A model generated the notes under the pieces. The model was not told where the DNA came from. It saw nothing but the letters and a program-made list of their open reading frames with translations, and made no database searches. Both the position numbers and the translations under genes were made by a program. A stretch of DNA of 64,000 nucleotides, from contig JAWWNJ010000026.1 of assembly GCA_037176885.1 (NCBI GenBank), positions 1,302,001 through 1,366,000 of the forward strand. Reading direction: 5' to 3'. Below, piece after piece: positions 9,111-31,791 of the stretch (its first letter is position 1; the number at the start of each line of letters is the position of its first letter). The DNA comes from Favolaschia claudopus (lineage: Eukaryota; Basidiomycota; Agaricomycetes; Agaricales; Mycenaceae).

Positions 9111-9343
9111 AGGTACACCCCGTGGGTCTTTCTATTTGCAGCGAACCCCCTTATATTTCGACAACCAGGAAAAATGGGCAAAATCCCCTCGACAAGATTG
9201 TCTAGAGTCAAATGTTCCTAACATCAAAATGAAGGATTTGGTCGAGGGGATTTCTTAAGGTAAGTATGGAACGGATAGGTTTTACTGAACTCCGCCGAAA
9301 AGGGAATATCATGTGATGTTCGTCGAGGGTGGATGGGGTGTAT
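9111..9343. mobile_element. Small MITE with TA target site, degenerate
   Basis: A 233 bp insertion in the left block that is missing from the matching place in the right block. It is flanked by TA (9109-9110 and 9344-9345). Its right end read inward (ATACACCCCATCCACCC) partly matches its left end (AGGTACACCCCGTGGGTC). The right end shares CACCCTCGACGAACATCAC with the MITE at 20533-20981, and both carry AAATCCCCTCGAC internally, so they belong to one Tc1/mariner-like family. Confidence 0.55.
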
Positions 9344-9960: not shown

Positions 9961-9968
9961 TTGCTGTT
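9961..9968. repeat. Left target-site duplication of the 1.5 kb inverted-repeat element
   Basis: TTGCTGTT here and TTGCTGAT at 33293-33300 (7 of 8 identical). The uninterrupted site in the right duplicate reads CCTGTTGCTGATTGG near 54090. An 8 bp duplication fits hAT-type transposition. Confidence 0.6.
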
Positions 9969-9971
9969 CAT

Positions 9972-10076
9972 CCACCACATTTTGGCATGGTCATATATGA
10001 AGCCCTGTAATTAGAGATCGGGTCTCATACATGAAACTGGGTAAATGAGAAGTGTGGCTCATATATGAGCTTAGAG
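9972..10076 (+). repeat. Left terminal inverted repeat of the KDZ element
   Basis: It pairs with the reverse complement of 31684-31789. The outermost 28 bases align without gaps at about 20 of 28 positions, starting CCA. The inner part ends in GGCTCATATATGAGCTTAGAG, of which 20 bases are conserved in the right end. It contains three palindromes of the form TCATAYATGA at 9991, 10025 and 10059, spaced exactly 34 bp. Confidence 0.85.
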
Positions 10077-10371
10077 GATGTACTTACTTGGGCCTTGCTC
10101 CGGTGCTCGACACGGGCGTCGACGAGCCACTCTGGACGTCGTCGTCGACGTTGATCAACATGTTGGCCCTTCCGGGACAAACATATCACAACAAATTACC
10201 AAAAATAGGGAAAAATGTGTTTAGCTTGACCAGCGTTTAAGTAGAGATGTAAGAAATTTGTAGGGAGAAAAAGATAAGCAAAGACACAATGAAAAAGGGA
10301 GAAACGAAAAAGGAAAAAGAAAAAGAAAGGAACAAAATAAAATAAAATAAACAGATACCGCGAATTCAATA

Positions 10372-10451
10372 GGTCCGGGGAATCGAACCCACGCCCTCCG
10401 CGCAGCCTTCGTGCAAAGGTAGGAGACATTAATACCTCTCGCCCACTGACC
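10372..10451 (-). tRNA. tRNA-like sequence, probably a tRNA relic
   Basis: On the minus strand an 80-base stretch begins GGTC and ends GGACC, with a T-arm-like GGGTTCGATTCCC near the 3' side and a CCTT/AAGG hairpin in the anticodon-arm position. D-arm pairing is poor and the anticodon loop is a base short, so no isotype can be given. It lies between the left inverted repeat and the transposase gene. It could be a tRNA-derived repeat rather than a functional gene. Confidence 0.3.
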
Positions 10452-10551
10452 TCTGATTAACTATAGGAACTCAGGCTCACTATACTCTGCTCCCAACTCA
10501 CGTGGAATATTGGAAAAAAAAGCGCATTCACTGTACATAATATCCTAGCTC

Positions 10552-13500
10552 CTACTCGCCGTCACTACTCCCATCGTCGTCGCCCTCGTCCTCCTCCTCG
10601 TCGTCCGCATCCGTACCCTCCTCCTCGTCGCCTCTGGGAATCTCCGCCTCCGCATTCGCCGACTTCTGCGCCACCGCCTCCGCCTCCGCGTTTGCCATTT
10701 GCCTCCGCCCCTCTGACACAAGCACCTTGACCCCCGCCTCCATCCACTTCGCCTGAAAACGGTCGGCGATATCTCGCATGAGCCGAGCTTGGCGGGAGGC
10801 GTACGCGTCAAGGCCTTCGCGAAGACGGGAGTTATTCGCCAGGTCCGCACGTCGAGAGTCTGCGGAATGGTCCTTTGTGGCGTCCCACTGTGCCGCACGC
10901 CATCGCAGGAATTCGGGTACCCGGCGCATCTCCTCCTCCAAAAGGTCGACCTCTTCCGTGTTTCGACGCCCCAGTGCGCGGGTTTTGGCCCATTCGATCC
11001 GTAAAGCTGGTATGTACGGACTCAGCAAAAAGCAGACCCAGCAATCCTGTGCGTACTTACCTTCGTTCATCGCCGGGTTACGGTCAGCGTTTGCGGCAGA
11101 TCCGTCTGCGAGCCAAATCCATGAGATGGGATTTGGAGTTTTCTTGCGTTTCTTCTTCGCTGATGGGGCCGCTTTCCGCCGCTGTCCCGGCTTTCGAAAG
11201 ATCGCCTCAGGCATACCCCGCACGTCCGCGTCATCCAGAGCTTGCAGCGTACCCGCCCATTCTTTCTTCCCCAGCCGCTTCCCTAGTACCTCCAAAGAAC
11301 TCCACGCCATACGATATGTAGTCGATCCTCTCCTCAATTTATCCTCGATTAATTTGAGCTTTGTGTGTGAGCGTGTGCCGTCGCGGACGTTGTGGTTTTC
11401 GGCATCCTTCCACTTGTACTCGTGGGTGCGGATGAGTAGCTGATGTCGCAGCTCATGGAGCGCCTCGTGTGCTTGGCCCTTGCGCAGACGGAATTCGAAT
11501 TCTTGAAGTTCGCGAGGGCATGCCACATCTTCTGCGAGCGCAGACGGCAAGAGGAGCGGAATATCCTGCACGAGCTCTCCTGCGGCGGGTTGTACCGGAT
11601 TTTGACGCTTCGCCGCAGCTTCCGCCCGAACCACGGTAACCGCTGGCATGAATTGAGCTTGCGTCGTCATCCACGACAGGACCTTCCGCCGCAATTTGCT
11701 GCAGCGCTCCAGCATCAATCGCTTCTGCGTGACTGTGGGGTGTAGGCCAACGCTGGCCTGGTCAAATTTAAGCTCCTGCCTGCAAGCAATGGGTCAGAGA
11801 TTTCGCGTATGAGATAAGTGACGGCTTACTGCTCGCTTTCAAGCTTCATCCCCATGGTCAGCATCTCCGCCGTGTTGACGTCCCCGCGCACCATCCCTCC
11901 TCCTTCCACCACCAGCTCCAAACGCACCGACGCAAGGTCAATGTGACCTTGCGTCCGCGCAAAAGGATTGGGGCAGGCAGCATCAGCCTCCCAGGCCGCA
12001 GTCATTGCCTTCCACTCCCGGAGAGTCTCCGTCGGAAGGGTTCGCTCCATTTGCAGCGTCTCGCGGCGTGCGCGGACCATTTCCGGGATGTAGTGCTTGA
12101 TTCGATCCAGAAAGTAAGTTCCTGTCCATAGTATTCAGTATATATGTGTAGAATAGGAAACGGAATACATATACCCATAGAAAGAATTTTCTTCCAATTC
12201 CAATGGTTGAAGTGGTCGTCCAGAACCTCGCGCCGAAGATGCGGACTCATTTCCCGAGTGCTCAAAGCAAGGGGGTTGATATTGGACCACCCGCGCTCCG
12301 GAGCCTCGCCGTCAGTCTGCCCAACATTGGGAGTGAAGAGAAAGGAAAACAGGATGTTGCAGGATTCAATGTGGGCGGGGAGGTGGAATTTAGGAACGAG
12401 GAATACAAAATAGCGCTTGTTATATTCTTCGCGTATCTGGAGAGGAAAAAGCCTAAGGCGGTGCCAAATATTTTTGTGCCATTGACAGGCAATGTCGTAG
12501 GAGACGTAGAACTCCAGGAGCTCGGAGCCTTCCAGGCTCATGAAAAACATGTAATCGACGTTGAGGTATCTAGCGCATTATGTTAGCCACGTAAGCACGC
12601 GAGGAAATCCGCCAAAGGTACTCACCGTTCCCCAGCTTGAAGATCCCCCACACCTCGGGGTCGTTTCATGTTGTGCCGCGCACAGTCTACCGTTACAATT
12701 CCTGAAGAGGCTGTTCCGCGCGCCTCTCGGTCTGGGGTGTTCACGGCGTCGTGAGCGACACAGGTGCTTTTCTGTACAAGTAGTTAGTCAACGTTATTGA
12801 AAGCGTCGCGGATACACTTACCGGCTGAGGCTCCTTCCAATTCTTTTCCAAGTAATCCATATACGCCGTCACCTCACCAAAAAACGCGAGGCCGCCGCCC
12901 AGATTCGCGTCCGCGGTTTCGCTCGAGACATCTTTCCTCTGCATACGGAAATTGGCGTCGAGCGCCAGAAACAATGCATACAAGAACCTTAAAATCATTA
13001 GAATCAGGGACGCCCGCCCGTTAGATGGAAGTACCTTTGGGAGGCGGGAACGTCTTTCCACTCAGGCGGCAAGTTTCGACCGGGTTGTGGACAAGCCGGG
13101 CACTCCACCGCACATGCACCCTCCTTGGTGTTGGCGATCCCATCCGTCTCGTGGCCTCGGCCCGCACGTTTGAGGATTTGAAGGTTGCGCCACTCTCGAG
13201 TCATATTGATGAACTCTTGATAACGCGACTAAGGGATATCGTTCGTCAGACGGTTCGGACGGCAATTTGAATTGATATACATACCTTAGGCGGCTCCCCA
13301 GTGTTGTCGGTGAGACGAGAGAGGGTGTTGTAGAACTCTCCCATGGAGCATTTGGATTCAAGGGACATAAGGTGGTAACTTCGGAGCACGTTGAAGGTAG
13401 CGGCAGTACCGGGTCGATTCCCGGTAGACGGGAACCATTTTCGTCGCAATAGCTGGGCTGGCAAGGTGGAGCCCTTTCCACAATCGCAATAGAGGAGCGC

Positions 13501-14392
13501 AATGTCGTGTAGGCCGTTCGTGTCGATCACAACGAAATTCTTGCCTGGAGCTTCGCGAGGGTGAGGACAGATGCCGTCGTGATGTAGTTCAGGGGAGAGA
13601 AAGACTTTCAGACCGAGGGCCTTCAGCGATGTACGGCGAAAGTGTATCGTTGACGAGTCCCACACCTGCGCCATATGTCGGACACATTATATGAGATTAG
13701 ACTAGAATAACTTACCTCAACTCGATGCAATGGATGTCGGTGATGTTCCCTCACAATACACGGCTTTGAGAGAAGCTCGCAGCCGTCACAATCCTTGCAA
13801 CGAAACATAGCCGGCTCGCCAGCACATCCAGGGTGACCGCAGTGGCATGTCGTGTAGATATGGTCCCCTCGGCCCTCGGTTCTCAGCAATTCATCCAAAA
13901 ACTCCGCGCGATACCTCTCCTTCCACTTTTTAACCGGACGGTACTGTTTTCAGAGGCGAATGAGTGGATTGCTCTAAATGATAGATTCTAGAGACTTACG
14001 GGCTCGCGTTTCGTAGGTACTTCAGTCTCCGAGCCACTGGATGCGATTTCGGACGCGGGGGGGAGGTCCTCGGTGTCGGAATTGAGCTGCGGCAGAGCCC
14101 AGTCATTGTCGACGAAATCGTATATCCAGCTGCCTTGTGGATTGACAGCGGGAGCGGCCTTGGGTAGCGAGGGCTTCACGGGAGAGGGTGGGGCCAGGAA
14201 GGTCATGAACGAGCTCGTATAGACGCTCGTCCCGTTCACCCCACCAGACCTGCTCTCGTAGAAAATTTCTTGCTCATCCCGATCGTCGTCGCTGGTCGAT
14301 GCAGAGGTAGAAGAGGCAGTCGACGATGCAGAGGCGGAGGAGCTGGAGGAGATTATTACTGTTCCGTCGTTCAGCTTGCGTTTTGGGGCCAT
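10552..14392 (-). CDS. KDZ (Kyakuja-Dileera-Zisupton) transposase with CxC2-type N-terminus
   Basis: The DNA transposase expected to mobilise the surrounding element. About ten exons give a protein of roughly 1,100 residues starting MAPKRKLNDG at 14392. In order: a Ser/Asp-rich N-terminus; a Cys/His cluster (TTCHCGHPGC, FRCKDCDGCELLSKPC, HHRHPLHR) at about 13720-13870; the CxC2-type segment VVIDTNGLHDIALLYCDCG (about 13460-13540) and RTAATFNVL-like sequence; TREWR...CPACPQPG; ALDANFRMQRKD (about 12950); VDCARHNMKRP (about 12660); YVSYDIACQW (about 12500); and VGQTDGEAPERGWSNINP (about 12300). The last three carry acidic residues expected to be catalytic. The C-terminus is basic, then very acidic. 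All exons join at consensus splice sites with no stop or shift, so the enzyme looks intact. Confidence 0.92.
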
Positions 14393-14728
14393 AGTCGTGC
14401 AGAGGCGAGAGTAAGAGACATATGGGTACTTTGAAGTTGAGAGAAGGTAAATGGCAGTGTCTCGGTGTACGTAAACAATTCACACCCTATTTTGGCGACA
14501 ATTCTCGATTCTTTTGCCTGTATCTTCACTTTTCACCGCAGGGAGTCGCGTGGGGAGGCAAGATAGTCGTAAGTATAATTGTAGATATGTATGCATAGTA
14601 AAAAACGGCGTATTGTACGAGGATAGGGCATATATATATGTATCGACCGCGAAAACGCTCATCACCGCTCATCCGTTCTCCTGACAATAAAAATGAGAAA
14701 TAATGGTCAGAACGTGCACAGAACGAAC

Positions 14729-17700
14729 TCACTGCTTCTTCTTGACACCCTGTAGTTCGCCCTCAGCTTCGGCTCGTCTTTTCCCTCCGTTCAATCGCTC
14801 CAACAGCTCAGCATCTCGCTCCGCAAGTGTCCTGATTTCCCCTCGATTCGCGGGCGCAACGACTTGACGACGAGGACGAGAGACATTGGGTACGACGACC
14901 ACCGTGTTATAGTTGTTGATCGCGGGGTTCGTCACCTGGATACCCCCCGCGCTCTGCGTTGCCGCCGCCGCCGTCCTCGCCTGCTCTTTTCGCGCCGCTT
15001 CCAAGGCGGCATGACGGTTGTTGTTGGTGCTGGTGAAAACATGGACAGGCGGCGCCGCTACTTCAGGGACGAGATGGAGCTGCGACGCCGGCGCGACGGC
15101 GCGTGCGGGGAGCCTAATTTTAAAGCCAGCAACAGGCTCGGCATTGGAGGGTTTGGCGGCAGACACGCCTTTCTTGACCTTGGTCTTCCCCGTCCCGCCC
15201 TTCGCCGCCTTACCATTCTTTGCCTGCCGCGCGTGCTCCATTCTGCGTGCCATGGTGGAGGGACTTGGTGGGTCGGGAGGAGGAGGCGGCGGTGCGTTGG
15301 CCTGAGGCCGTGATCTGGGAAACGGCAGCGCTTCTTTTTCTTTCGCTGGAAATGGCAACGCTTGTTTTTCTCGCGCTGGACGCGGCGAAGTCGAAATGCG
15401 GCGCATCCGCAACGGCAAGGCATCTAAAGAGAGTACGCCCTGGGGCTCTTCAGTGCCAGCCGTGGGGTTGGAAGAGGTGGGCGGATGCGGCGTGGATGTG
15501 AAAGATGTCGGAGGATTGGGTGGGAGAATGGGAGGCGCTGCATTCGGAGGAGAAGACGCGGCTGCAGGGTGCGGGGTGAATGGTGTCGGGGTGGGGGTGG
15601 GATTGGACGGAGACGCGGCGTTTGAAACTATGGGTGAAGGACTTGAGGAGGTTGTGGAAGTCGGAGGATTTGCGTTTGGCGTCGAGCGAAAACGATGCAA
15701 AGGGTCGGAATTCAGCCCCGGGGAAAAAGATGCGGCCGCAAGGTGCGGTCTGAATGAAGACGTAGAGGTGGACGTAGAATTAGATGTAGAAGCAGTGTAG
15801 GGAGGACTTGACGAAGTGGCGGGAGGCTGTGGCGTGGATACGGGGTTGGCGAGGGAATCGGAACGCGGGAAACCGAAGATTGGCTCCTGGGCCAGGGGAG
15901 AGGAACGAAGCAGAGGCGCCGATGAGGAGCGATTGCCCAAGTGAGGGACGACCGTGGTCTGGAAGGAGCGAAAGTGGGGTGTACGTCCAAATTGAATTGA
16001 CCCCGACGCGCTCCGCTCCAAACGACGTGGCAGTGGACGATTTGAGGATGAGCTATCCTGCGTTTGAGGTTGGGAAGAATGAAGGCCCGACGCCGTCATG
16101 CCCATATCTCCCTGCAACCCATCTGCAGGATCCGTGGTCGACATTGCCGTGCCGCTATAGCTGTGAGCGGTCTCCATTTGATCAATGTGAAGGTGCTCCG
16201 GCACCTGCGAATCATAGTGTGCGGCATCGAATGAGGAACGGCTTCGGGGGACTAGGTAGCAGTCAGGAAAGGTGCGGAAATGGGAGGTTTAATAAACTTA
16301 CAGAGTGTATTTGACATTCCTACCGACGAACTGCTTCCAAAAATATCGTCAGAATGGGAGGGGGTGTCCGCCGTCAAAGGGGGGAAACGGAAGCCTTGGA
16401 CCCCATAGGTCGTGTTTTGCGTGTCAGGCTCAGGCAATGCGAACAATCCCGGGTCATCGTTGACGGCCAAGTCGTTCGTAGCCCAACTTTCGTCGTCCAA
16501 ACCAGGGTTGTCGAGGCTGGCCAGGTCGCCGTCGGGCGGGAGATGACGCGTCCAGTCGTACCCGGGGGGAAACAAGTCATCTGTAGATCCCGAGGGGTGT
16601 ACTCCGCCAAGGGAATTCGCATGGGACGACTCTAGGGCCGTAGATGCTGGATGGTGCAATCCGTCCACAGAAGGTGTAGAACGAAACGATTCTGGAGCGG
16701 GGATGGAAAGTGGGGTATGGGACGATTCTGAGGCATTTGTAGGCGGGAATGCTGGAGCTGACTGGGTCGAGGCGGACGAGATTGATGAGGTCGACACGGC
16801 AGCGGAAGATGAAGCCGACCGCCGATCCCGAGGGCGACGGGCAGGCGGTTGAAGCGTACCTAAGCGCTCGTTGGTGACATTGGGGTCCGGCGTCGCCTGC
16901 TTGGCCGATTTCTGATTCTTGGATGCCTTCTCCTTCGCCTTTTCCTTGCGGTTCTTCCTGGACGACGACTTCTTGCTTGGCGCAGGGGCCTCTTGCTCAC
17001 CAGCGGTCGCAACATCTTCCTCGATGGCCTCTTCGTCTTCCAAGGAGTACAGAGCACGAGACAATCGTACTTCGCGAGCTGAAATCTGTCAGACAATCGC
17101 CACCAGCATTTGTCGCACGAAAAAACCTACGGATGACGATACGGGCAAATTTGGCAAGAGGTTGTCCAACAGCTTTTTCAAAATTCGGGTGGAAATCTTC
17201 AAATGAGAGGCCCTCCTTGGTAGATCCAAAACAATGGCTGATGATGATGACGGATGAGAATAAGAACATAAAGACCAAAAAGGAAATTCTCACGTCTTCA
17301 TCCCCAACTTGCCACCCAAACGCGGGATAGGGCCAATACACGACGCGAACCCAACCCAGCCCCCCAACATCTGACTGAACACGCTGAAGAACATATCCAG
17401 AACCCCCAGCGCCTCGTCTATGGATCTGAGATCGCGAGTCAGACTACAAGTACTTAGATTGCGACAACATCACTTACAACTGGCATTCCTCTGGAGTTCG
17501 TTCGGCGTCTTCGCCTTCCTCCTCGCTGGAGGTGGGCCCGGGCTTTACCACTTCCTCTGCCGCTAACCTTCGCATGGCCTCTTGAACTTGAAACGCAGCC
17601 CCGTCGAAAGATTCCTGCAAAACGCGGCGATACACTTTCATGCGTTCAGAGCGAGCCGCCTCGATACGTTTCTTCTTGATGTCGGAGTCGTTGTCGTCAA

Positions 17701-18260
17701 CCCAAGTACCATCCTCGTCGCGACACATAGCTGCTTCGTTGAGATCCGTGAAGCCCGCCACATCCAGCGCCTGCTGGACCTCCGCTTTATGCTCCCTTGC
17801 GTATACCTCCAGCACCTGGTGACGCCTTCGTCGCTTGGGGTATTTCTTGAACAAGGTACTGGCGAGTGAGTGGGCCGAGCGAGAGACCCCTCCGCGCTGA
17901 GCCGAAAGCTTCCCGAAAATATTATATAGTTTGTCGTGAAGTTGCTGCGCGATGTAAGTATACGCCAGTCGTCTTCGAGAACCGGTAAGTACTGACTTTA
18001 AATCTCTTTGTCATCGCCGTGTTCAGCAACTCGCGCTCCTCGGCCGTCAGCGACCGAGTCTGGGTGACGGCGTTAGGATCATGAGCCTCCTGTACAGGTA
18101 ACCCCAAAGCCAGCTCTTCGGGAAACTCGCTGAACCACGCCTCTTTCAGCTTCACCCAAAAACCCTCAAGCTTTTTCTGTGATTTTTTGAGCAAGAACTC
18201 GGGGAACCATGTCGATATGAAAAGGTCCTGTTCGGGAGTTGACCACGGCTTTGGAGGCAT
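14729..18260 (-). CDS. KDZ-associated large protein of unknown function
   Basis: A multi-exon gene directly upstream of, and co-oriented with, the transposase. Exon 1 (18260 to about 18006) encodes MPPKPWSTPEQDLFISTWFP, a start typical of Agaricomycete proteins found beside KDZ transposases. Later exons give a basic stretch (FKKYPKRRRRHQVLEVYARE), a conserved-looking central segment (MLGGWVGF, IGPIPR, KTHCFGSTKEGLSFEDFHP; about 17430-17150), a Lys-rich stretch (about 16900-17000) and a long Ser/Pro/Thr-rich low-complexity tail ending GVKKKQ. Total length is roughly 1,000 residues. No enzymatic motif is seen. The N-terminus resembles a small helical DNA-binding-like module, so a role in target or end recognition is possible but is inference only. 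Confidence 0.75.
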
Positions 18261-18589
18261 GTAGACGAGCGGAAGGGCGCGGGGGGGAGAGGTGTGTCTG
18301 TGTGGTGAAAATCAGAGGAGTTTGGTGCGTTGAGACAACACTTAACGATTTTCAAAACAAATGACCGCGAATCAGCATCACACCATGCTGGTGTGCGGAT
18401 TTTCAGGTTCCGGATAATCGCCTTAACACAAATTCTGAGACGCAATACTTGTAACTACGCGGAATATTCTGATGGCATTCCACCCCGCCTACAGCGCCGG
18501 TCGCTTCGCGTCTGTCCCGACATCTAATCTACCAGCCGTCCGCCATCAGAGCCATTACTGCACGCAATCTCTAAACCCGAAGACCCCAG

Positions 18590-18826
18590 TTAGCAGGAAA
18601 CGGCGCACGAATTAATGCGACCCACCTTTTTTTGCAAATCGACCTCTTGCTTGAATTCTTCCGTATCCACGTCGCCTCGCAGCGGAAACTCGCGAAACCA
18701 GTCCTCCAACATAACGCTCCAGAATGCGGGGAGGCGACGGTGGGCCTTTTCGTGAAGATAGACGGGGAACCACGCGGCCACAAAATCTTTCTGCTCCGGG
18801 GTAAGCCAGGTTTTCTTCGGGGCCAT
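18590..18826 (-). pseudogene. Solo first exon related to the KDZ-associated gene
   Basis: Begins MAPKKTWLTPEQKDFVAAWFP and continues RRLPAFWSVMLEDWFREFPL, clearly parallel to exon 1 of the gene ending at 18260 (MPPKPWSTPEQDLFISTWFP...FWVKLKEAWFSEFP). After LQKK a splice-like GTGGGTCGC follows, but no second exon is evident before 18260. It is most likely a broken tandem duplicate, less likely a short functional protein. Confidence 0.6.
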
Positions 18827-19138
18827 TTGTTTAGCGGGGCAAGGGTCTGCGTCGCAATAATCAGGATCTGAGCGCGTCGCCGTTTCAGACCTACCTTTTA
18901 TCTCCCCAAGTCGGAAATCAATATCATATAATCACGCTGCGCTCGGCTGTATTCCCCGTCCAAAATCTACCATTCTATTGACAAGTTTTGCAGGCCCACA
19001 ATCAATTTTATTTTCCCCCCAATCCGGTCCAATTTCCACCGCGTCTTCAGAAGCGAGCGCGCCGGCGCGCGCGGGCACGCTCTACGAGAACCTCGCGCAT
19101 CACAGCGTTGTACAGACGCTGAACGGTTGTCAGCCACT

Positions 19139-19380
19139 TCAGTAATTCCAAGTAGGTCTAAGAAGACGCACCCTTCTCTTCTTCAAAATTGTCCGGTTAA
19201 TCTGCGACAGGAGCATGTCGAGGTCGATTTCGTTGGCAAACTCGTCGAAGTACGCGTCATACATGGTTTCCCAGTACAAAGGTAGGTTGTTTCCCGTTCG
19301 GAACGGCTCGTAGACGGCGGCCCAACGATTTATGAAGCTTGTGTGGGCGGCGGTCTGCCACGGGACGGATGAGAGGGCCA
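19139..19380 (-). pseudogene. Second solo first exon, more diverged
   Basis: From MALSSVPWQTAAHTSFINRW at about 19380, followed by LYWETMYDAYFDEFANEIDL. The pattern of a tryptophan, a helical segment, then W..MYD.YF.EF follows the two first exons at 18006-18260 and 18590-18826. No downstream exons are seen. An upstream in-frame extension to 19444 is possible. Confidence 0.45.
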
Positions 19381-19699
19381 TGGGTTGGGGGGAGGAGAAT
19401 AGGAATGTTTTTTCATGTTTTGCCCGATCCTCGTACCGGCGCAATTATTCGGTTTCTCTAGAGCCGTCGGCGAGCCTTCCGGGGCATTCGGAGCTGCAAT
19501 AACCCAATGCGGGCGAGCTCCTTTTGTCAATCGCGTGCGGCGTGTGCAGCCTGAATTCGGGGGCCTTGATACGTTTTGATACGGCTGATTGTGAGTATCG
19601 CGTGGTCCGTCTCCAGCCAAACATATCCACTCACTGCTTTCTCAGATATACTTGGTCTTTCCCTCCCCACCTCCAAAAAAACCCCTCACATCTACACTC

Positions 19700-20304
19700 A
19701 TGTCTGCCCCCGCCGCCCACCTTTTCAACGACGATGGCACCAAACGGGCCGAGCTATCGGAGCTGATCGTCCACCTCCAAGCCATTGCACGCCACACCGG
19801 CATGGCACAGGGTACGTTTTTCAGCTCTACATGTCGCTCTTCAACGCTGATTCAATCTTAGCAAACCTCTCAACCCTCCTCGGTGGAGAATGTGCGTTTC
19901 TCCTCCTTCTCCCTCACCTCTCCCCTTCTGATCCCTTCCTCCCGCAGCCGTCACTCAGGCCATCTTCGTGGAAGGCGAGGCCGACACCCCCCAGACCATC
20001 GCCGCCCGCTACGAGAATCAGATCAAGGGCTCGGTATACTACGTTGTGCTTGTCGGACGCAACCCCGGCGTCTACGCGTCGTTGTGCGTACCTCTCCCCC
20101 TCGTTTTTCATCGCCTCTGTACTGACCTTTCTCCTTAGCGATGACGCCAAGAAGCAAGTGACGGGAGTCCCCAACAACTCCTGCCACAGGAAGCAGGGTT
20201 TTGGAGTCGCCCTCGACTTCTACCGCACCAACTACCCCGACAACGTCAAGAAGATCGCGGAGGAGGACTGGGTGGATGTTGCGGCGGCGGCGGCGGCGGC
20301 GTAG
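19700..20304 (+). CDS. Small protein with RNase H1 N-terminal (viroplasmin-like) domain
   Basis: Four exons: 19700-19811, 19862-19891, 19948-20083 and 20139-20304, joined by introns of about 50-57 bases. The protein of roughly 145 residues starts MSAPAAHLFNDDG. Its second half contains YYVVLVGRNPGVYASF, DDAKKQVTGVPNN and a following basic/aromatic segment, the pattern of the small hybrid-binding domain found at the N-terminus of RNase H1 and in caulimovirus viroplasmin. In known members this fold binds RNA:DNA hybrids or double-stranded RNA. It ends in eight alanines encoded by a GCG repeat just before TAG 20302. It is the first plus-strand cargo gene, divergent from the minus-strand genes to its left. 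Confidence 0.75.
20281..20301 (+). repeat. GCG microsatellite encoding a poly-alanine tail
   Basis: Seven tandem GCG units immediately before the stop codon of the preceding gene; copy number may vary between isolates. Confidence 0.9.
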
Positions 20305-20532
20305 ATACTATCGTTGCGAGATGTACCCCGTGAATTGTATATGTTTTTTTCGTGCACGCATCGTATTCGTTCCAGCCCGTGGAGGCCATTGCAAATTTTT
20401 CTTTGATTCCATGGGTGCGATGCCCTTGATAAGTTGATTCCATGGACCGGTCAGTGACCGGTCGCGCCCCGGAACCCGGGATGGGCCTGGTGATTTGCTT
20501 GGCCAACGCATGATTGCTTTTGATTGATGGTA

Positions 20533-20981
20533 AGGTAGACCCAGTCCACCCTCGACGAACATCACGTGAAATTTCCTTATTCAGCGGTTTTCGACAAAAT
20601 GCATCTGTAAAGTACATTGTAGTTTGAATTGAACAAATCCCCTCGACCAAATCCTTTATTTCAGTCTAAGCTTCATTTTTCTCTCTGACATTGTGACGAT
20701 ACCATGAGTTTCTGGGCCAGAGTTATCGAATCACTGGCGGCTGTCTCAAAATTTGCTCCCACGACTGCCTCAACTGTTTTCCCATCACAAAACTTGTTTC
20801 CGGAACTCCTTCTTGCACAGAGGTAATAGAGCTCTGATATTTTATCTCTAGATACTTGAATACAATTAGAACAATCTGGTCGGAGGAATTTGGCTGTTTC
20901 CTCCTAATAGTCTCGATATAAGGAGGTTCGCTGTAGATGGAAATAACACGTGATGTTCGTCGAGGGTGGACTGGGTCTACC
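20533..20981. mobile_element. Tc1/mariner-type MITE, 449 bp
   Basis: Bounded by TA (20531-20532 and 20982-20983). The terminal inverted repeats start AGGTAGACCCAGTCCACCC and match for about 37 bases, through CGACGAACATCACGTG. There is no open frame of note. It sits between the stop of the viroplasmin-like gene and the 3' end of the minus-strand gene at 21338, so it is a later passenger in the KDZ element. It is related to the shorter insertion at 9111-9343. Confidence 0.85.
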
Positions 20982-21337
20982 TTAAGTAATGTCTTCCCCT
21001 CCACTCTCTCTATCTGCATTCTTACATTGTTCTATATTACTACTCACATATAAGCGACCTACCTATTGAACCAATACTGCGCTAGGGTACGAATTCTCCT
21101 CGCTTTTACTTACACTTTGTCTTTGCTTTGTCTGGATCAATCCGTGTGAAATGATGAGATTTCTGATGGATTTGATTTGGTTAAAGTGGGGGTGAGATAC
21201 TTACGGAAAGATCGGCGTTCAGACTGAGGCAGTGTTATTGACGACAGATTCGAACAGAAGCTACTGAACGGATATACGGCAGGGTGTATTCAATGCAAAA
21301 GGGTTTACAATGTCCGGCCGTCCCCAACAGGTAATAT

Positions 21338-22536
21338 CTAGCTCCGACCCCCGCGTGCCTTCCTGCGTGCTTTCAAGATATCGGCAAAGAGTTTTCGTGG
21401 CGTGAGCGTCAGCATTTCTTCCGGCCCATCGTATTCCGGGGTTTGCCAACGCGGACGTGGCTCCCGGCCGTTGCGTTGATTGGCTTGGCGACGGCGAGGT
21501 GGTGGATCGGGGGAAGGGGTCGCAATAGGGAGTGAGGTCATGGGCGAGCTCGTCCAACCGCCAGCCGGCGGTGCGCGCGCGATGCGGGGAGCAAAATCGA
21601 GGTCGGGGGTAGAAAGTGGTGGCGGGGATGAGGGCGGAAGTGGACTGCTTGCAGCGAGCGCGGCGAAGGGAGGCGTCGGCGGCAGCGCCACCGCGCTGGC
21701 CTTTGAAAAAAAATTGGATCAAGTAGAAACAATGTGAAGGCAAACGCACCTTATACAGTGACGACAGCACCTGCGACGCGATGGTCTCCTGCTCTCGGAG
21801 CCGCGCCTCTGCTTCCTGCTGCGCCTTCACCTCGAATTCCTCGCGCTCCACCGCCTCGGCCGCACTCTCTCGCGCTTTGATTTCGTCCAGCTTCCTTTTC
21901 CACAACGTTGGAAGCTGGCCGTCGTATGATTCGCCGACAATCTCGCTGTTCATCAAATTTGAGTCGCAGCTATTACTCGGAGGAAGGGAAGGAGTACGCA
22001 CCTAGCGGTAGGCGAGGGTCCCATGCGAGGAGCGGGCTCCGTAATCGACGGCTCGTAGTGACCCTCCTCGTCCTCAAATTCTTCGCCGGAGGCTGCGTAG
22101 CCGCCCTCGCTGGGCGTAGGTCGAGCACCACCCTCGCTGGACGATGGCGAAGGTTCCCTGATTATCTTGGGAGGGTCCCACCGCCGCCTCGCCTGCTTTT
22201 TCTTTTGTCTACCAGAAATCACACCATGAAAACATTAACAGAACGTAGCACATACCTGATCACTTGCATTCTGAGGCGCTTGGATTCCCGGTATTCCGGA
22301 TGCCTGAAGGCAGTGAATTGTGAGAGAGGTGCGAGAAATCGGTAAACGGACGCACTGTGCATAGTAACTCCGCCAAGCGGCGCGCTTTCTCGTCGCCCGC
22401 TCCTCCTGGCTCCTCAATTCTCTGACGGAGGAATTTAGACACAAGCTAGCAAGATGAAGGTACTTTCTTACTGGGGAGTATACTCTGCGTCGTCGTCCGA
22501 TGATGCTCTAGATTTTTTCCGTTTCCGTTCCCTCAT
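21338..22536 (-). CDS. Charged coiled-coil cargo protein, function unknown
   Basis: The start at 22536 reads MRERKRKKSRASSDDDAEYT. Subsequent short exons encode a Glu/Arg-rich stretch (IEEPGGAGDEKARRLAELL), HPEYRESKRLRMQ, a basic segment with a Ser/Glu-rich acidic tract (RRRWDPPKIIREP, about 22050-22200), a predicted coiled coil (about 21740-21960: LWKRKLDEIKARESAAEAV and following Glu/Gln/Ala repeats) and a Pro-rich C-terminus ending KARRKARGGRS at 21338. At least six exons join in frame at consensus sites, which argues for a real gene. No known domain is recognised. It is the innermost minus-strand gene of the KDZ element. Confidence 0.6.
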
Positions 22537-24231: not shown

Positions 24232-26002
24232 ATGGAGCGTACCACTCGCTCCGGTCGTCCATACGCCGCATTTACGCACCGTCTGGATAAGGACATTCAA
24301 GTCATTGTCACAAACGTAGACATTTCAGAGGCACTGCAGCGGGCGCTCCTTGATTCCGATGAACGCGCCGCCGCTCAAGAGGCTGGTATCCCTCCTGACT
24401 TTGATGACGACAGCGAGTGGGAGGATGAGGTAGAAAGTCGTCCTCCGTCGCCACTCTCCGACCTCACGACCACGGACGCGGAGCAACCATCCCGCCGCTC
24501 GCCCATCCCTATTGAAACTCTTTCTTGGTGGGTTCTGCCGACGCTTTAACCGACCCATCTTGACTCCCTCTCATCAGCGAGCCCACACTCCTCCAACAAG
24601 ACCACCTCGCGACCTCACCTTCTGCGATGGTGGGTTTGGAAGCGCCATCGTCGCTCTCCGTCGAGCAACTCCGGCGCCGCGTTCAGCGTTATAAGCGCCG
24701 GAAGGAAAGGCGCGCCGAAACCGCCGCCTCCACGCCCCACACCCCTTACCGCAAAAAAATGCGCGTCAAACACAATCAGTCCCATCGTGAGCAGTCGCCG
24801 ATACACTCCGCCTTCGATACAGGTCAAGCGTACGCGTCCAAATCTGGCGCTTGGATCGCCTCTGCCGGGAAGCGTACCGCGCGTGCTCGCCGTCTGCGGA
24901 GGGAGATCCTCATCAAGGAAGGTGTGCTGGTGATCGAGTGGGATGGCAGGCAAGTTTGGTCAACTTATTTCATTGGCATGCGAGGTAACATTTACGCAGG
25001 AATCCCAAGCTCATTCTGGACCGCCACGGCAACATCATTGCCGTGTTGCTGGGTCGGCCAGAGGAGGAGGATGATTGGGACGATGTTGTGCGCCGTGTCG
25101 AGGAGCTGTTCGCGCGCATCAGGAAGGCGGGGGAGAAAAGCCGGGCGTTTCGGGCCAAGGACTTGGTACATCGCAGGGGAAGGTTTGCAATACTTGCGAC
25201 CGGCGTGTCTTTTGGCGGTGGCCAGCAGGTAAGCTGATGGGTTCAATTCCGCCCACATTTTGGAGCTAATCACGCCTCAAGCGCCCTGGAAATCTGACCC
25301 ACAGCAAGAAGCGAGCCAAGCTGGTGCAATGCCTGTTGAGGGATCACTCATTGCGACGTATCGCCGGGTTTCAATCGTGTATGTTCCACCTCTCCTCAAT
25401 TCTACATGGGCTAAAACATATCCGTTTCGTTAGCGGGTCTTGCACGATATGCACCAAAGCTATGGAAGTATTACGTCGAAACTCTATCAACTCTTTTCGA
25501 GAACCACGACGGTCTGCAGCACAACTTCACCAACTCAGTCTACCCCGCCGCCACCTGCAATCTGGGCCCTTCGACCGTTGCCGACGAACACCTCGACCTC
25601 AACAACTGCGCGCACGGCCTTTGCGCCATCACCTCAATGGGTCCTTACGATCATCGGAAGGGCGGCGACCTATTTCTAAAACAACTGAATATGCTGGTCC
25701 CGTTCCCCTCCGGGTCCACTGTGCTCATCCCCTCTGCCTTCGTCGAGCACGGAAACACGACCATCGCCGATGGTGAGGCCCGGTTCTCATTCACCCAGTA
25801 CGCCGCCGGCGCCCTCTTTCGCTGGGTCAAGTATGGATGCCGCACGGCGAAATCTCTGCTGGAGAAACGGGGTGGGGCGGAGATTGTAGCCGCTCTTGAT
25901 GGTGAACCGGGGTCGCATTGGAAATGGGCTATGGGGTTGTTCTCCAAGGTGGACGGATTGGAGGAGGATCGGCGATCCGCGCTTGGGGACCTTTATGTTT
26001 GA
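24232..26002 (+). CDS. TET/JBP-like 2-oxoglutarate and Fe(II)-dependent dioxygenase
   Basis: Five exons: 24232 to about 24526, about 24579-24952, about 25004-25229, about 25281-25378 and about 25435-26002. The intron near 24953-25003 appears to use a GC donor. The protein of about 480 residues starts MERTTRSGRPYAAF, has an acidic then basic N-terminal half, and ends in the double-stranded beta-helix core of fungal TET/JBP proteins: VADEHLDLNNCAHGLC (metal-binding His and Asp, about 25580-25610), the second His in PSAFVEHGNT (about 25748), and the 2-oxoglutarate-binding Arg in EARFSFTQYAAGALFRW (about 25781). All key residues are present. Characterised family members oxidise 5-methylcytosine or thymine in DNA; the fungal group is linked to KDZ transposons. 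The substrate here is unproven. Confidence 0.85.
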
Positions 26003-26124
26003 TCACACCCCCGGACACCGCAGCTGAGCACCTTCCGTTTTCATGTCTTTCCATATATGTAACTGCAATACAAATTTGAATTTTGCCTCCACCCTTCGTC
26101 CGAACTTCTCTCCAACCTACCACC

Positions 26125-26812: not shown

Positions 26813-27028
26813 ATAAATGCTGAAACCTTCCCGGTTGGATCTGGTGGTGCACGGAGGGGAAACGGGTGTAGAATACAAAAGATTTATTTCGCGCCGCAAA
26901 AAAGGCAAATTGTACATGTGCACGCGGATGTAGATTTGTGAATTTGTGCAAAATACAACTCAATCTCGTACCAATACCTAACCAAGGGCGATATCGTATA
27001 CCACGCGACTGAACACCAACGCAAATGC

Positions 27029-27612
27029 CTCCCGAGCTGAAACAGACGAGTCGCAGTAAGACGTTCGCTCGTTAGGACATGGGCGACGGACTTACCCATG
27101 CAGCTCACACAAAACAGCCCCCACGACGTACTGGTGGAATCCCTTGGCCGTTGCCTACTGCGGCTCCAACGGTGAGGTTTGCGACGCCGACCCGTTCCCT
27201 TGGAAAGCAACGACCGCTTGCCGCCAGACCCACCACTCCTGTGAAAGAGAAGGACGAAGAGCCGGGCCCGCCCATATTCGACTGCGCCATCTGCAAGAGA
27301 GAACTGTATCCCCGGGCACTTTGTGGATGCGGAGATGCACGCGAGCAACACTTGAGGTGGAAGGCAGCCGACGACGTCGCGTTCCGCGAGGATCGCAAGG
27401 GCTGGATGGAGCAAAATGCCCCGGCTCGCCGCCTCCAACCCGACCTCGAGGACAGGTGGGCGGAGTTGGAGAAACAGTTGCGGGATTCCACGACGGCCAG
27501 GGAGGAGAAGGAGGAGATGAGACGCGTGCGTCTGGAAGGGCGCCGAGCACCGGTTCGGCATGCGGTGGTGGAGGCGGCCGCGATTGCGCGAGAACGCGGG
27601 TACGGGCGATAG
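27029..27612 (+). CDS. Small protein with zinc-ribbon-like Cys cluster
   Basis: Start MPPELKQTSR; an intron (about 27059-27102) joins to THTKQPPRRTGG. The main exon encodes a Pro/Thr-rich segment, then the Cys cluster FDCAICKRELYPRALCGCG (about 27280-27335), a pattern able to bind one zinc, followed by a Trp- and Arg-rich helical region and the end ARERGYGR. No named family is recognised. The Cys pattern recalls the N-terminal cluster of the unrelated cargo gene at 43920. Confidence 0.5.
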
Positions 27613-27800
27613 GCGAGACGAAGACCCCGAAAGCTGGCTGCGACAGCGAAGTGATGGAGACACATGTATCTTCCGGTTCCTGGGGAGACGGCGGCAGAAG
27701 AGCTGTGGTTTATAATGGAGTTAACAAATTTGACCTTTTCATATATGAAAGACGCACCTTGGCTTTTTCCCCCACCCACTGCCGCCAGCTACCAACCCAA

Positions 27801-28309
27801 AATGCCGCTCAGCCTCTCCAGCAGACAATACAGTATGAGAGTGGAGGAAACGATGCAGGTGGTGACCGTAGCTGGTAAGAACGCGGATGGCGCGAGCTTG
27901 AATGTTAAGCTTGGTTAGTTCCTATCCACCTATTTGAAGTGCGATCTGACAAACCACTGTAGAAGCCATGAGCGACGCCAAAGCTCTTGAGCATCTGCGG
28001 ACGTTGGTCGACGCGTCGGCAATGAAGGAAAATATTCCGCCGAGTATATGGGGCCAACTCGACGAGCAGCTCGCTACACGGGGCCGACGTTTGCTGAAAG
28101 GGGCACGACACAAGGTGGCGACGAAGAAATCCAAGCTGGAGAAGATCTCGCGAGAGATTGACCGTCTGCCGAAGACGTACGCTCAGCGTAAGAGTGGCCT
28201 GCAGACTCGAGTTGCGAAGATGGTCAAGAAAGCTGAGGTGACAGCGGCGAGGATGGACCGTGTTGGCGCGAAGTTGGCAGAGAGGAACGGGAACATCGGG
28301 GTAGTGTAG
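27801..28309 (+). CDS. Basic coiled-coil cargo protein
   Basis: MPLSLSSRQYSMRVEETMQV (from 27801), spliced at about 27915/27961 to EAMSDAKALEHLRTLVDASA. The rest is Lys/Arg-rich helix (KKSKLEKISREIDRLPKTY) up to the TAG at 28307. An upstream ATG at 27664 in the same frame would add 46 residues. Length is about 150 residues; no domain recognised. It is the fourth co-oriented gene after the viroplasmin-like gene. Confidence 0.45.
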
Positions 28310-28438
28310 CGGCGGTGTGTACGAGGCGGGCTTGCGGATACCTAGCATTATATCTTGGGAGTTGTTAACAAGTCATTCGTTTGTCGAGAACTTCCTTTTT
28401 TGGACGTTTGGTTTCTTGCTTCTTCCGCCCTTCTTCCC

Positions 28439-29527
28439 ATGTCCGAGTTTCGGTGTAGCATCCCTTTCTACCCTGACGCTGGCCACCCCGACGATCCCGC
28501 CCTCAATAAGTATCTCTGCCTTGTTACTGGGGCTGGTGTGGTGAAGCCAGGTGTGTACACATCCTGGTGAGTCGCTGTATCTACTATCTTGATTTCCTCA
28601 TAAGTATTTGGACTGACCTCACTTCAAAACCTTAGGTGCAGCGCGGTCGCACAATGCGACGGTATTCCGTATGCATCCTGCAAGTCTTTCAAACACTGGG
28701 ACGACGTGAAAGTCGCTTGGTTCGGTGCCTGTGACGACGGCGAACATCCACATCCTGCGCGACCCTCTTCCACCCATCCCGTCTCGCGAACGCCAGCTTC
28801 GTCGTGCCCTTCATCACCCACATCGGTTTCTGCTCCTCTGTCGTCCGCATCGCCGCTTGTCATGCCCAGGACGCCAGATCTCGCCTTCAGTTCCTCAGAC
28901 TGCGGGTCGTCATCCGGCTCACGACCATCCCTGGATCCTGCGCCCATTGGCGATACTCAACCACCTACATCTTCCGCGTTGGATTCGACGCCCGTTTGCG
29001 ATACGCAGGCACCTGCCTCTCCCGCTCTAGACCTCCCTTCTCATCCCTGCGACGGGGGCTCGGAATTCAGCTCCTGCCGTTCGTCGCCCCGTCTGTCAGC
29101 CGCAGATTCTTGCTCCTCCTCCGAGTCCATCCTTGCCGACGGGAAACATTCCTTACCGTTGCCCGACGTTCCTCCACTCTTTGAGGATCACCCCCCTTTC
29201 CTTGATATCGAGATCTCCGACCACGTCTCCTATGCAGTTCGCGCCCGCGAATTCTCCATGGGCAGCATGCTTGACGTCAGCTTTGGAGTTGTATCCGGGA
29301 GCTGGGAACGCGCGAGGGCCCATTATCTGCGGCTGCAGGCTCTGGGACGCCTCCCGGAAATCGTATCCACTCCGTCCCTAACGGAGGCTGTCTGCTTTGT
29401 GGAGGGTTTTGTGTGTGTGGGCTCCTCCCGCGAGGCACGCCGCCGTCGGGAGTTGATTCTTGAAGAGACCACGGCCCGCGAGCGTTGGCTTCAACGGCGG
29501 TTTTTTTCGCGCACACGGAGGTCGTAA
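28439..29527 (+). CDS. Protein with viroplasmin-like N-terminus and Ser/Pro-rich tail
   Basis: Exons 28439-28566 and 28636-29527. The N-terminal part has YLCLVTGAGVVKPGVYTSW, then CDGIPYASCKSFKHWDDVK across the splice, the pattern of the RNase H1 N-terminal hybrid-binding domain (Y..V..G...GVY.SW...Q..G......KSF). A long Ser/Pro-rich linker follows. The C-terminal 110 residues are more ordered (SYAVRAREFSMGSMLDVSFG, WERARAHYLRLQALGRLPEI) and end Arg-rich. It is about 340 residues long. It is the second such domain in the KDZ element; the two proteins share little beyond it. Confidence 0.65.
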
Positions 29528-29681
29528 CTCTGAGTTTTGCTTTGCTTTTTTGTCGACGTTAGCCCAGTACCTATATTTGTTGTATTTATCAATATAATTG
29601 GACTTCGATGAATTTCCAAAACTACTGTATATGGACAAACAGTATACTAGTGTGGCGAACCTGATACACCGTACCCATCAA

Positions 29682-29766
29682 GGCTCTCTGGGAGAACAGT
29701 ATGGGTTCCCTCACTGTCTGGCAGTTGCAATGCAGGCGGTCACCGGTTCGACTCCGGCGTGGGCCA
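29682..29766 (+). tRNA. tRNA-like sequence near the right end of the KDZ element
   Basis: A stretch of about 85 bases with ends GGCTCTC and GTGGGCC that pair at six of seven positions, a D-arm-like GGGA/TCCC, an ACTG/CAGT hairpin in the anticodon position and a T-arm-like CCGGTTCGACTCCGG. Spacing is not canonical (short anticodon loop), so no isotype is given. It may be a relic or a chance fold. Confidence 0.3.
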
Positions 29767-29903
29767 TTCCTGCTGCTGAAAGATGTTTTTTCTCGGCCTT
29801 TCCTTTTTGGGCAATTTGTTGACAGTTTCTGTCGAACAAGAGGCTGTGCTTGTCAATCAATCTCGCACACTCTCTTCCTTAACCACAACCTCCACCACAC
29901 CAA

Positions 29904-30289
29904 CATGACTCTCACTGGTGAACCTGCGGCGGCGACTACCTGTGCGGTCATTGGCTTTCTCACAAGTACTTAACTTAAGGGGCTCTCTTCCTCAGACCCG
30001 GGCCGCTCTTCAGACCCGGACCGCGGAGAACGATACATCGACTTCGGTCGTTTTTTTCCCCACCTCCAGCAGTACACTCAAAAGTTGTATGTTTTGGTGT
30101 ACGTTCGTAAAACAACATCTCGTTTAATGATCACTAATTCTACGGCAATTCAGGAATGGAACATACGTTGAATATGTTATCGACGACGACGACGAAGACG
30201 ACGACGAAGTCCCAGAGTTGATGCCGTGTGATGTCGATGAAAATCCCAAGAGGGGGGGTCAGTTGGTGTTGGTCAAGGCAAAGTTGTAA
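29904..30289 (+). CDS. Possible small acidic protein
   Basis: A short spliced frame. The last exon (from about 30154) encodes NGTYVEYVIDDDDEDDDEV, then PELMPCDVDENPKRGGQLVL, ending at TAA 30287. It joins in frame to an upstream exon at about 29996-30095. The candidate first exon MTLTGEPAAATTC at 29904 does not join cleanly in phase, so the 5' structure is uncertain. A GAC/GAA repeat (30180-30210) encodes the acidic run. Confidence 0.3.
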
Positions 30290-31683
30290 GAAATTTGTAT
30301 CTACTTGTCACTTTGTGCGAACATATGTACTTGGAGAAATTTTGGTATCGATGCCAAGGAGTGCAAAGACCGGCCCTAAAGATCTGCATCACAATTCTCA
30401 AAAACACGAATACGCACGTACTTTCAAGATGTCTGCAATCCAGTCTTCAATATTCTGATGTTCGCGTGCACCAAAGACAACGGGTTCCGTCTGATTCAAC
30501 GGAAAAAAGCGGTATTTTTCATAGTACATACATTTGTGATACATACATCATTGTGTAGGGCTAATAGACGGGACGAGCGAGCTGTCAAGACGGACAATTC
30601 GGCTACATGGCCAAGGGCTGCGGAGCGAGGCAACTGACATAAAGACGCGCGGAACGTGCGATTCTGGAACCACCGAGAAGGAGTGGGATGGTACGCCACG
30701 AACGGCATAAACGTAGAAAATTGGAGCTTGGAGAAACGAAGAATATGGCGGTGCCGGTGCGGGTTCGGCCGCCGGGTCGAGGCGCGATGCGTGCTGAGGG
30801 AGGAAACGGCTGATTGGCTGGACAGCCCCGAGAACGTGGAGGAGGCAACAAAGTGGGGTTGCAGTGTGCAGCTGGTGCACAGGGGCCGGTGGAATAGGCG
30901 GAAAACACCAGCGAGGAGCGCTGGGGGGCAAGGGCGAGCGCGGGCCGGAGGGCGGCTGGAGGAGGCATTTGCGATGCTACGAAGGCACGCAAAACCAGGA
31001 AGTAGCAATGATGGACACCGTAATGTGTAGCAAAAGCGCCGCAAAGGCGGAGGGGCCGAGCGCTGGGTGCAGGCCAATATTCCTGGCCGAATTTGAGCAA
31101 AATGGATGGGGAGAGAGGGAGACAGCGTACGGTACGGGGCACGGCAGGACAGAGTCTATAGCGAACACAGCAGAGGGGCAAGCTGGGAAGGGCGGGCAGC
31201 AAGCAGCGCCAGCGGTATTGAATGCGGGAATGCGGATATATAACGCGTTCGGGAGAGCTAAAGAAGCGGTGAAAGAGCGTAGAGATGGGTGTAGAGGGGG
31301 GAGTAAGTCATATGCAAAGTTCGACGAAGCCCAGAGCGTGTAGGAGGGACGGAGCTGCCGGGGGAAGGGGTAGAGCAGGTGGTGGGGAGAGGAAGGAGTC
31401 TGATCATAACAACTACAAACACAGTTCCGTCACCCAAAACGGCGATGTTTCTCGACGACCTAGCGATCCAAAATACGCGCAGAAGCAGCCACAAACTTCG
31501 GAGGACGACCGCGTATCATGAATTGAACTACCGCTCGCAAGGCAGAGCTGCGCGCTACGTAGAAGGGAACATCTATATTAGGCAGGGCGGAGCGGGGTAC
31601 AGCCACGCGCGCGATACCCGCCCAGACGACGCCGCCGCGCGATACCAGCTCGGGACCCGGAGGTATCTCCAGATAAGTAATTG
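30290..31683. other. Right-hand part of the KDZ element without recognised genes
   Basis: GC-rich sequence with overlapping open frames on both strands (for example minus 30496-31077 and plus 30864-31343), none with a known motif, plausible splicing or family resemblance. A TATATAACGCG motif near 31236 could be promoter-like. Confidence 0.4.
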
Positions 31684-31789
31684 CTCTAAGCTCATATATG
31701 AGCCCCGTCTCTAACTTACAGACTCTCATGTATGAGGCCGCGTCTCTCCTTGCAAGTCTTTCATATATGAAAATTACACTATCCGCTGG
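31684..31789 (-). repeat. Right terminal inverted repeat of the KDZ element
   Basis: The reverse complement matches 9972-10076. Palindromes TCATATATGA (31692), TCATGTATGA (31726) and TCATATATGA (31761) lie 34 and 35 bp apart, mirroring the left end. The element ends ...CCGCTGG, followed by the TTCAT duplication. Confidence 0.85.
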
Positions 31790-31791
31790 TT

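Follow-up and report, generated by a model that had tools for sequence, protein, structure and literature searches.

A complete 21.8-kb KDZ transposon encoding a TET/JBP-like dioxygenase in the Favolaschia claudopus genome

Introduction

Do the TET/JBP genes found in fungal transposons sit in complete, movable units? The introduction of a December 2025 paper calls this unknown, and the paper then answers the question with reconstructed consensus elements (PMC12730594). A 64,000-nucleotide stretch of the Favolaschia claudopus genome (contig JAWWNJ010000026.1, positions 1,302,001 to 1,366,000 of the forward strand; hereafter the window) raises the same question for a single genomic locus. From its sequence, an original prediction had proposed a KDZ transposon with readable ends, target duplication and empty site. 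We searched the whole 264.6-Mb assembly (460 contigs, the window lying within contig C26) and compared the locus with its relatives. Positions 9973 to 31788 of the window are a single complete DNA transposon of 21,816 base pairs (bp), referred to as element A in the rest of the paper; a reading as a gene cluster is excluded.

Results

Element A has sharp ends and a 7-bp target site duplication

Element A (9973..31788, no strand assigned), a complete Kyakuja-type KDZ transposon, starts with CA and ends with TG, and its limits were set by boundary searches and by comparison of copies. Comparison of the copies' flanks revealed a 7-bp target site duplication, GTTCATC, at 9966..9972 on the left and 31789..31795 on the right, likewise without strand. 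Used as a genome query, the left boundary region of A found six further places where homology begins no more than 7 bases from A's first base, in three cases right at it, and the right boundary region found three at which it ends no more than 4 bases past A's last base. The search for further copies sharing A's ends, which had been proposed with the original prediction, yielded dispersed relatives with sharp shared ends. Perfect 7-bp direct repeats (GTTCATC, GTTTCCG, GTTCTTG and GGTTAGC across the set) flank all four copies that possess both ends, namely A, B, C and D, when the element is taken to begin with CA and finish with TG; the same termini bound family P, described below. None of these four duplications extends to 8 bp, the mark of Zisupton and Dileera. 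Among 3168 CA..TG pairs located within 500 bp of either side of A's ends, a single one, the 9973/31788 pair, is bordered by a 7-bp direct repeat. The limits originally given, 9972 and 31789, were therefore nearly right, the true ends lying one base further in on each side. TTCAT, proposed as the repeat on both outer sides, is present and fits as a 5-bp duplication, but it is the middle of the 7-bp GTTCATC that accompanies the CA..TG ends.

Copies B (C26:1155067-1176514, strand not given; 21,448 bp) and D (minus strand of C162; 26,693 bp) are full-length and have 7-bp target duplications of their own. Both are collinear with A at 67-87% DNA identity, with gaps where divergence defeats alignment. 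The gene order common to the three begins with the transposase, a partner gene, two small open reading frames (ORFs), an ORF with a weak Cauli_VI match and a basic ORF, and continues with the dioxygenase, a 177-amino-acid (aa) ORF and a coiled-coil-like one, up to a gene whose product has an RNase H1 N-terminal domain. Collinearity of B and D bears out the proposal that A is one full element and not a cluster of separate genes. Copy C (minus strand of C132; 6,664 bp) is an internal-deletion derivative that has both ends and lacks the transposase and the dioxygenase, copy E (minus strand of C28) is near-identical to A outside the left tip and has no right end, and copy F is a solo left end. No transposase copy with different, nearer ends was encountered among the copies examined, the nearest relatives using A's ends, and ends without the full gene set were seen only in the 6.7-kb copy C and in F. 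A partial left end bordered by the outer flank of D recurs about 5.2 kb from D's full one (C162:416409-418667), a local duplication of flank and end.

Subterminal repeats contain palindromes

The predicted inverted repeats near both ends exist, as a 97-bp stretch of 76% identity that contains palindromes; its local alignment score is 47, compared to a maximum of 22 among 952 random 110-bp pairs drawn from the window. They are subterminal, beginning at base 19, and the outermost 18 bp are unpaired, with 9 of 18 matches in each of the five elements A, B, C, D and P. The left subterminal array (9991..10068, plus strand) holds TCATATATGA, a palindrome found at bases 19 and 87 of the element, and the near-palindrome TCATACATGA at base 53, and sequence comparison of the ends places its mirror image, with units at window positions 31692, 31726 and 31761, in the right array (31692..31770, minus strand). 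In A, B, C and D, each end has TCATATATGA at base 19 and again at base 87 or 88; the near-palindrome at base 53 or 54 is found in A and D. The subterminal palindromes look like binding sites for the transposase and are retained as candidates.

Element A inserted into another transposon

The target of A was the left tip of a Plavaka-like non-autonomous transposon of 1,501 bp (31792..33292, no strand assigned). This element has CATCA...TGATG ends beside a 2-bp TT duplication, which is the published PlavakaB signature (PMC12730594). The homologous locus near 54 kb (54088), originally taken for an empty site, does lack A, but it is ruled out as a plain empty site, two insertions being missing there: its match to A's left flank ends at 9968 and restarts at 33291 because the locus contains neither A nor the Plavaka-like transposon hosting it. 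Contig C37 also lacks both. It is collinear with A's surroundings, being 98-100% identical for 7974-9968, 96% for 33291-33874, 99.8% for 34862-38255 and 92% for 2920-7962. C37 is probably the other haplotype, and the two insertions are therefore probably polymorphic within the genome.

Genes carried by element A

The transposase gene (10552..14392, minus strand), defined by Pfam and a comparative model, has nine exons and codes for 1,140 aa (1,125 aa in another run) with KDZ (PF18758, E = 1.4e-37) and CxC2 (PF18803, E = 7.1e-32) domains. These domains confirm the predicted KDZ transposase inside the element, and the comparative gene model is free of stops. The frame looks open in the comparative model, a reading that rests mainly on exon conservation because the finder itself forbids stops and is no independent proof; the exons of A align with their counterparts in B and D at 64-98% amino-acid identity. 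Six-frame Pfam scans covering 10001-29777 with an E-value limit of 0.01 detected no transposase family besides KDZ and gave no match to a tyrosine recombinase.

Next to the transposase lies the partner gene (14733..18297, minus strand; limits provisional), recognized by comparison of A, B and D, which consists of a conserved 'STPEQ' part (17290-18297) followed by a Ser/Pro-rich, fast-evolving part. It has no Pfam match, and its exon 17477-17944 recurs elsewhere in the genome beside KDZ or dioxygenase matches. Also on the minus strand are a second 'TPEQ' ORF (18609..18826), whose provisional limits come from comparison and a gene model, a small conserved ORF modelled at 93 aa (19047..19381) with a ratio of nonsynonymous to synonymous substitution rates (dN/dS) of 0.15-0.17, and the basic ORF (21137..22536), with 333 aa in one gene model and more in two others, for which Pfam gave no match over the cut-off.

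The plus strand carries an ORF with a weak match to the RNase H1 N-terminal (Cauli_VI) domain, under the curated cut-off (19596..20161; Pfam and model), and the TET/JBP-like 2-oxoglutarate and Fe(II)-dependent (2OG-Fe(II)) dioxygenase gene (24232..26002). The length of the dioxygenase model depends on the run, 594 aa in the first and 503 aa in the later two, and the catalytic core with its HxD...H...R motif falls in a single exon (25433-25999). Beyond it lies a Cys-containing ORF of 177 aa (27079..27612). Loci of A, B, C, D and the E type account for ten of its 13 genome matches; of the other three, one is on C55 near a dioxygenase fragment and two are pieces with stops on C92. The set ends with a coiled-coil-like ORF that is the first exon of a longer gene model (27968..28303) and the large exon of a protein with an RNase H1 N-terminal (Cauli_VI) domain (28634..29524; PF01693, E = 3.4e-5, 24.4 bits against a cut-off of 21). 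Models of the Ser/Pro-rich and 3'-terminal genes differ among runs, and parts of the B and D models contain evident errors.

Copy comparison also delimited a nested miniature inverted-repeat transposable element (MITE) of about 454 bp (20531..20985, limits approximate, no strand assigned) that is missing from copy E. Around 32 genome places at 96-100% identity are listed for its family, with 39 of 233 candidates scored; such near-identical dispersed copies indicate a recently active family.

Compared exons of the carried genes are under purifying selection

We estimated dN/dS from A's exons against those of B and D, and for the basic ORF also against C. Three comparisons were saturated, transposase exon 12626-12769, which had been read out of frame, was left out, and the values are rough because synonymous sites are near saturation (mostly 0.5-0.8 differing). 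Two computable exon comparisons exceeded the range of 0.01-0.27 that held all the others: 0.51 for the 177-aa ORF with D and 0.32 for a 54-codon basic-ORF match in C. Transposase exons gave 0.01-0.10, the partner gene 0.08-0.11 and the Cauli_VI gene at 28634 0.14-0.21, and the dioxygenase core gave 0.04 against B and was saturated against D. By this measure the compared exons of A are under purifying selection, and low values across the carried genes indicate that these have long travelled together under selection. CpG depletion as a sign of methylation was not found, the observed/expected CpG ratios being 1.10, 1.14, 1.09 and 1.11 in A, B, C and D, respectively. Outside the elements, the ratio is 1.08 in the left flank, 0.93 in the right region and 0.85 in the Plavaka-like element. 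Transitions at CpG make up 18 of the 66 substitutions that separate A from E. Neither the ratios nor these transitions are decisive on methylation.

A wider class of related elements

The genome contains at least 202 KDZ exon matches (150 of 699 candidates scored) and at least 150 dioxygenase core matches (150 of 281 scored), both counts being lower bounds because only part of the candidates were scored. The partner gene has 25 genome matches, 21 of them distant (25-32% identity), and 20 of the 25 have a listed KDZ match no farther than 15 kb away or a listed dioxygenase match no farther than 10 kb away. With the A family set aside, 16 of 21 are near listed KDZ or dioxygenase matches, compared to fewer than one expected under uniform placement.

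One further family, P, is represented by a 19,466-bp element (C16:1677086-1696551, strand not given) with CA..TG termini and AGTGTGC on both sides. Its wider surroundings contain 13 CA..TG pairs with 7-bp repeats, and the chosen pair alone coincides with the homology limits. Six P copies (on C61, C28, C41 and C37) start at 3084-3086 and stop at 2551-2554 of the respective queries, a shorter P lies on C235, and C11 and C60 hold the flanks of P without P itself. The KDZ gene of P lies beside the left end, as in A, B and D, and its palindromes are at an A-like distance from the ends. Compared with A, P shows 38-78% identity by exon in the transposase, 50% in the dioxygenase core and a weak 32-38% in the partner gene. 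The 177-aa, coiled-coil, basic and Cauli_VI (28634) genes of A have no match in P at E = 1e-3, and the core common to A and P is therefore smaller than A's gene set.

A bolder reading, well short of even odds, is that large Kyakuja elements of 19-27 kb form a class in this genome, present at scores to hundreds of loci. Their transposase would make up a module with a constant partner gene and a third, so far undescribed kind of TET-like dioxygenase, marked by HxD, Cys at D+9 and, as in hTet2, Asn at D+3. The gene sets might serve the elements themselves against host silencing, and the subterminal palindrome at base 19 or 20 of each end might co-evolve with the transposase between families.

Other features of the window

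A 998-bp MITE (33874-34871) has inverted repeats of 98 bp (97%) and is flanked by GTCAAGT as a 7-bp duplication; the counterpart loci at 54.6 kb and on C37 lack it. Positions 37072-38259 and 55258-55854 contain repeated units of TPR and NB-ARC/nSTAND ORFs that resemble immune receptors. The double insertion of A and the Plavaka-like element seemingly lies upstream of one such unit and may therefore influence its expression. A 6.9-kb element (39468-46371) has 189-bp inverted repeats (98%), TATGG...CCATA tips, a 6-bp duplication, CCTGAG, and a Pfam integrase-core match in ORF 41480-42076, in agreement with the published IS3EU signature (PMC12730594). A retroelement occupies 56187-60369, with an open frame of 1,394 aa containing a reverse transcriptase domain.

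Discussion

Taken together, these results make it probable, at roughly three chances in four, that A is a complete cut-and-paste transposon of the Kyakuja branch of KDZ, recently mobile, with its own co-inherited gene set that includes an anti-silencing dioxygenase and helper proteins. The transposase would bind the palindrome arrays, the first unit of which lies at bases 19-28 of each end, excise A and join it to the target with a 7-bp stagger. The dioxygenase would oxidize methylated bases in A's DNA and let A escape silencing, and the partner proteins might assist transposition, DNA binding or expression. The set of about ten genes would be A's own equipment and not host cargo.

Several observations weigh against one part or another of this explanation. 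The gene models are comparative predictions by a finder that disallows in-frame stops, and an earlier version of the finder, not yet bound by this rule, broke up the transposase and gave models with stops at splice joins. Outside the end arrays, the palindrome TCATATATGA has one further occurrence each within A, within D and in another part of the window. The proposed placement of A in Kyakuja is based on end features, the KDZ domain and the likely host type, and A has a subterminal inverted repeat with palindromes, in contrast to the TET+ Kyakuja, which are published as having no terminal inverted repeats (TIRs). The other adverse points concern the dioxygenase and copy E.

The dioxygenase could be a 2OG-Fe(II) oxygenase of this kind whose substrate is RNA, protein or a different base, in which case the transposon would be real and the anti-silencing role wrong. 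We regard this as a possibility of some substance, short of an even chance. The core of A's dioxygenase has no Pfam match at E up to 1, and its relatives match Pfam weakly, eight of the 15 aligned hitting 2OG-FeII_Oxy_3 (best E = 0.0044) and six Tet_JBP (best E = 0.0027). Searches of PDB sequences with the single sequence, a 3-row profile and a 15-row profile returned no TET match, in a set that may not include the CcTet chain, and a single-sequence AlphaFold model (predicted local distance difference test score of 34.6) was too low for use. The marker residues of the AG type are missing as well. Two types are described from Agaricomycete transposons: AG, with Gly or Ser at D+3 and Asp at D+9, and PE, with HxE in place of HxD (PMC12730594). 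A's dioxygenase belongs to neither because it has Asn at D+3 and Cys at D+9 and retains HxD. We extracted 23 sequences (A, B, D and 20 loci picked for diversity among 150 listed matches), all of which have HxD and, assuming no gap between the positions, this Asn and Cys.

The catalytic residues themselves speak for a TET-like enzyme. The core exon of A contains H53, D55, H106, R117 and a Tyr at R+6, the HxD...H...R motif is invariant in all 15 aligned relatives, and the spacings of 53/11/6 are close to the 50/9/6 described for CcTet (PMC11040006). CcTet has Gly331 at D+3 and Asp337 at D+9 where hTet2 has Asn1387 and Thr1393, and Asn1387, the counterpart of the invariant Asn of A's relatives, is the residue by which hTet2 is reported to hold 5-methylcytosine (PMC11040006). 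In addition, 46 of 148 dioxygenase exons have a listed KDZ match less than 15 kb away, compared to about 2.5 expected under uniform placement. We keep the label 'TET/JBP-like'; given a core that matches neither Pfam nor PDB and lacks the AG-type markers, we infer oxidation of methylated DNA and do not assert it.

A could also be a relic or near-relic, complete yet immobile, with E derived from segmental duplication or from assembly at contig ends. E is truncated, having no right end in the assembly, and its dioxygenase match ends at residue 168 of 189. C28 and C255 share near-identical E stretches at identical coordinates (about 6.8-14.4 kb) and C453 repeats them, so that contig-end assembly problems in the form of duplicated contig ends are possible and E may be such an artefact. 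Over 18,423 aligned bases, A and E differ by 66 substitutions, 42 of which fall within E's first 541 bp, and by 25 small indels, 13 of which are 1-2 base gaps in A within one 7.9-kb stretch; E also contains some 1.8 kb of inserted sequence. Identity between the left tips of A, B and E is about the same for each pair (92.7-94.3%), a pattern that suggests exchange of ends between copies. Nevertheless, the match of E to A breaks off at the left element boundary, where an unrelated flank begins, the transposase exons are under purifying selection, and the collinear C37 lacks the insertion, which together make the relic unlikely. The suggestion that A may still be mobilisable is plausible, since outside the left-terminal 0.5 kb or so E differs from A by 24 substitutions in about 17.9 kb, and it goes no further than that, E being truncated and no movement having been observed.

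It is far less probable that the ends belong to a transposon of another type with the KDZ gene as a passenger. Several genes of A have no assigned function and the six-frame scan covered 10001-29777, but KDZ is the only transposase family in the scanned part, its gene sits beside the left end in A, B and D as well as in P, whose ends follow the same rules, and CA..TG termini with 7-bp duplications are the published Kyakuja signature (PMC12730594). A host gene cluster, or several separate insertions between similar repeats, would account for ten genes over 21.8 kb, which is long for a cut-and-paste element, and is refuted by collinear copies at two further sites, which share A's ends and are each flanked by a separate target duplication, unless these copies are assembly artefacts.

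With A read as a complete transposon, a TET/JBP-like gene is placed inside a complete unit directly by single genomic copies, through their ends, duplications, insertion-free site, internal-deletion derivative and selection. Large multi-gene elements and a dioxygenase without the AG and PE markers make the question of whether such elements clear their own methylation directly testable.

Comparison with known systems

The Starship giant transposons resemble A as large, many-gene fungal DNA transposons. Their captain gene codes for a tyrosine recombinase. A differs from them by its KDZ transposase, its 7-bp duplication and a gene set that is constant among A, B and D. Closer to A are KDZ1, KDZ2 and KDZ3 of Cryptococcus neoformans, complete elements that have a KDZ transposase with a CxC domain and whose movement was demonstrated in the laboratory (PMC12810828). 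Unlike A, they measure 9.2-11 kb, have TIRs of 139-241 bp and duplications of 4-8 bp, and carry CxC1 instead of CxC2, and the passages describing them mention no dioxygenase gene (PMC12810828). Zisupton and Dileera belong to the same KDZ superfamily and are able to carry TET/JBP genes, and they differ from A by their 8-bp duplications (PMC12730594). CcTet of Coprinopsis cinerea shares with A's dioxygenase the 2OG-Fe(II) HxD, the distal His, the Arg and the aromatic residue at similar spacing, and differs in having Gly331 and Asp337 in place of Asn and Cys (PMC11040006); the PDB profile search gave no match between them.

The nearest known systems are the TET+ Kyakuja elements Kyakuja-1_LB and Kyakuja-2_LB (Kojima 2025), described with 7-bp duplications and 5'-CA..TG-3' termini (PMC12730594). 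They have in common with A the KDZ transposase, the 7-bp duplication, the CA..TG ends, the internal dioxygenase gene and an Agaricomycete-type host, and most Agaricomycotina genomes are said to encode a few TET+ families (PMC12730594). The AG type has Gly or Ser and Asp where A has Asn and Cys. Elements of the A family span 21.4-26.7 kb with about ten genes, and the published lengths and gene counts of TET+ Kyakuja sit in supplements. Full-text literature searches returned no description of 20-27 kb multi-gene KDZ elements in the titles and abstract openings listed, a result that leaves supplements outside its scope and is no claim of absence from print. Unusual in A are its size, its number of genes and a dioxygenase outside the AG and PE types described from mushroom transposons.

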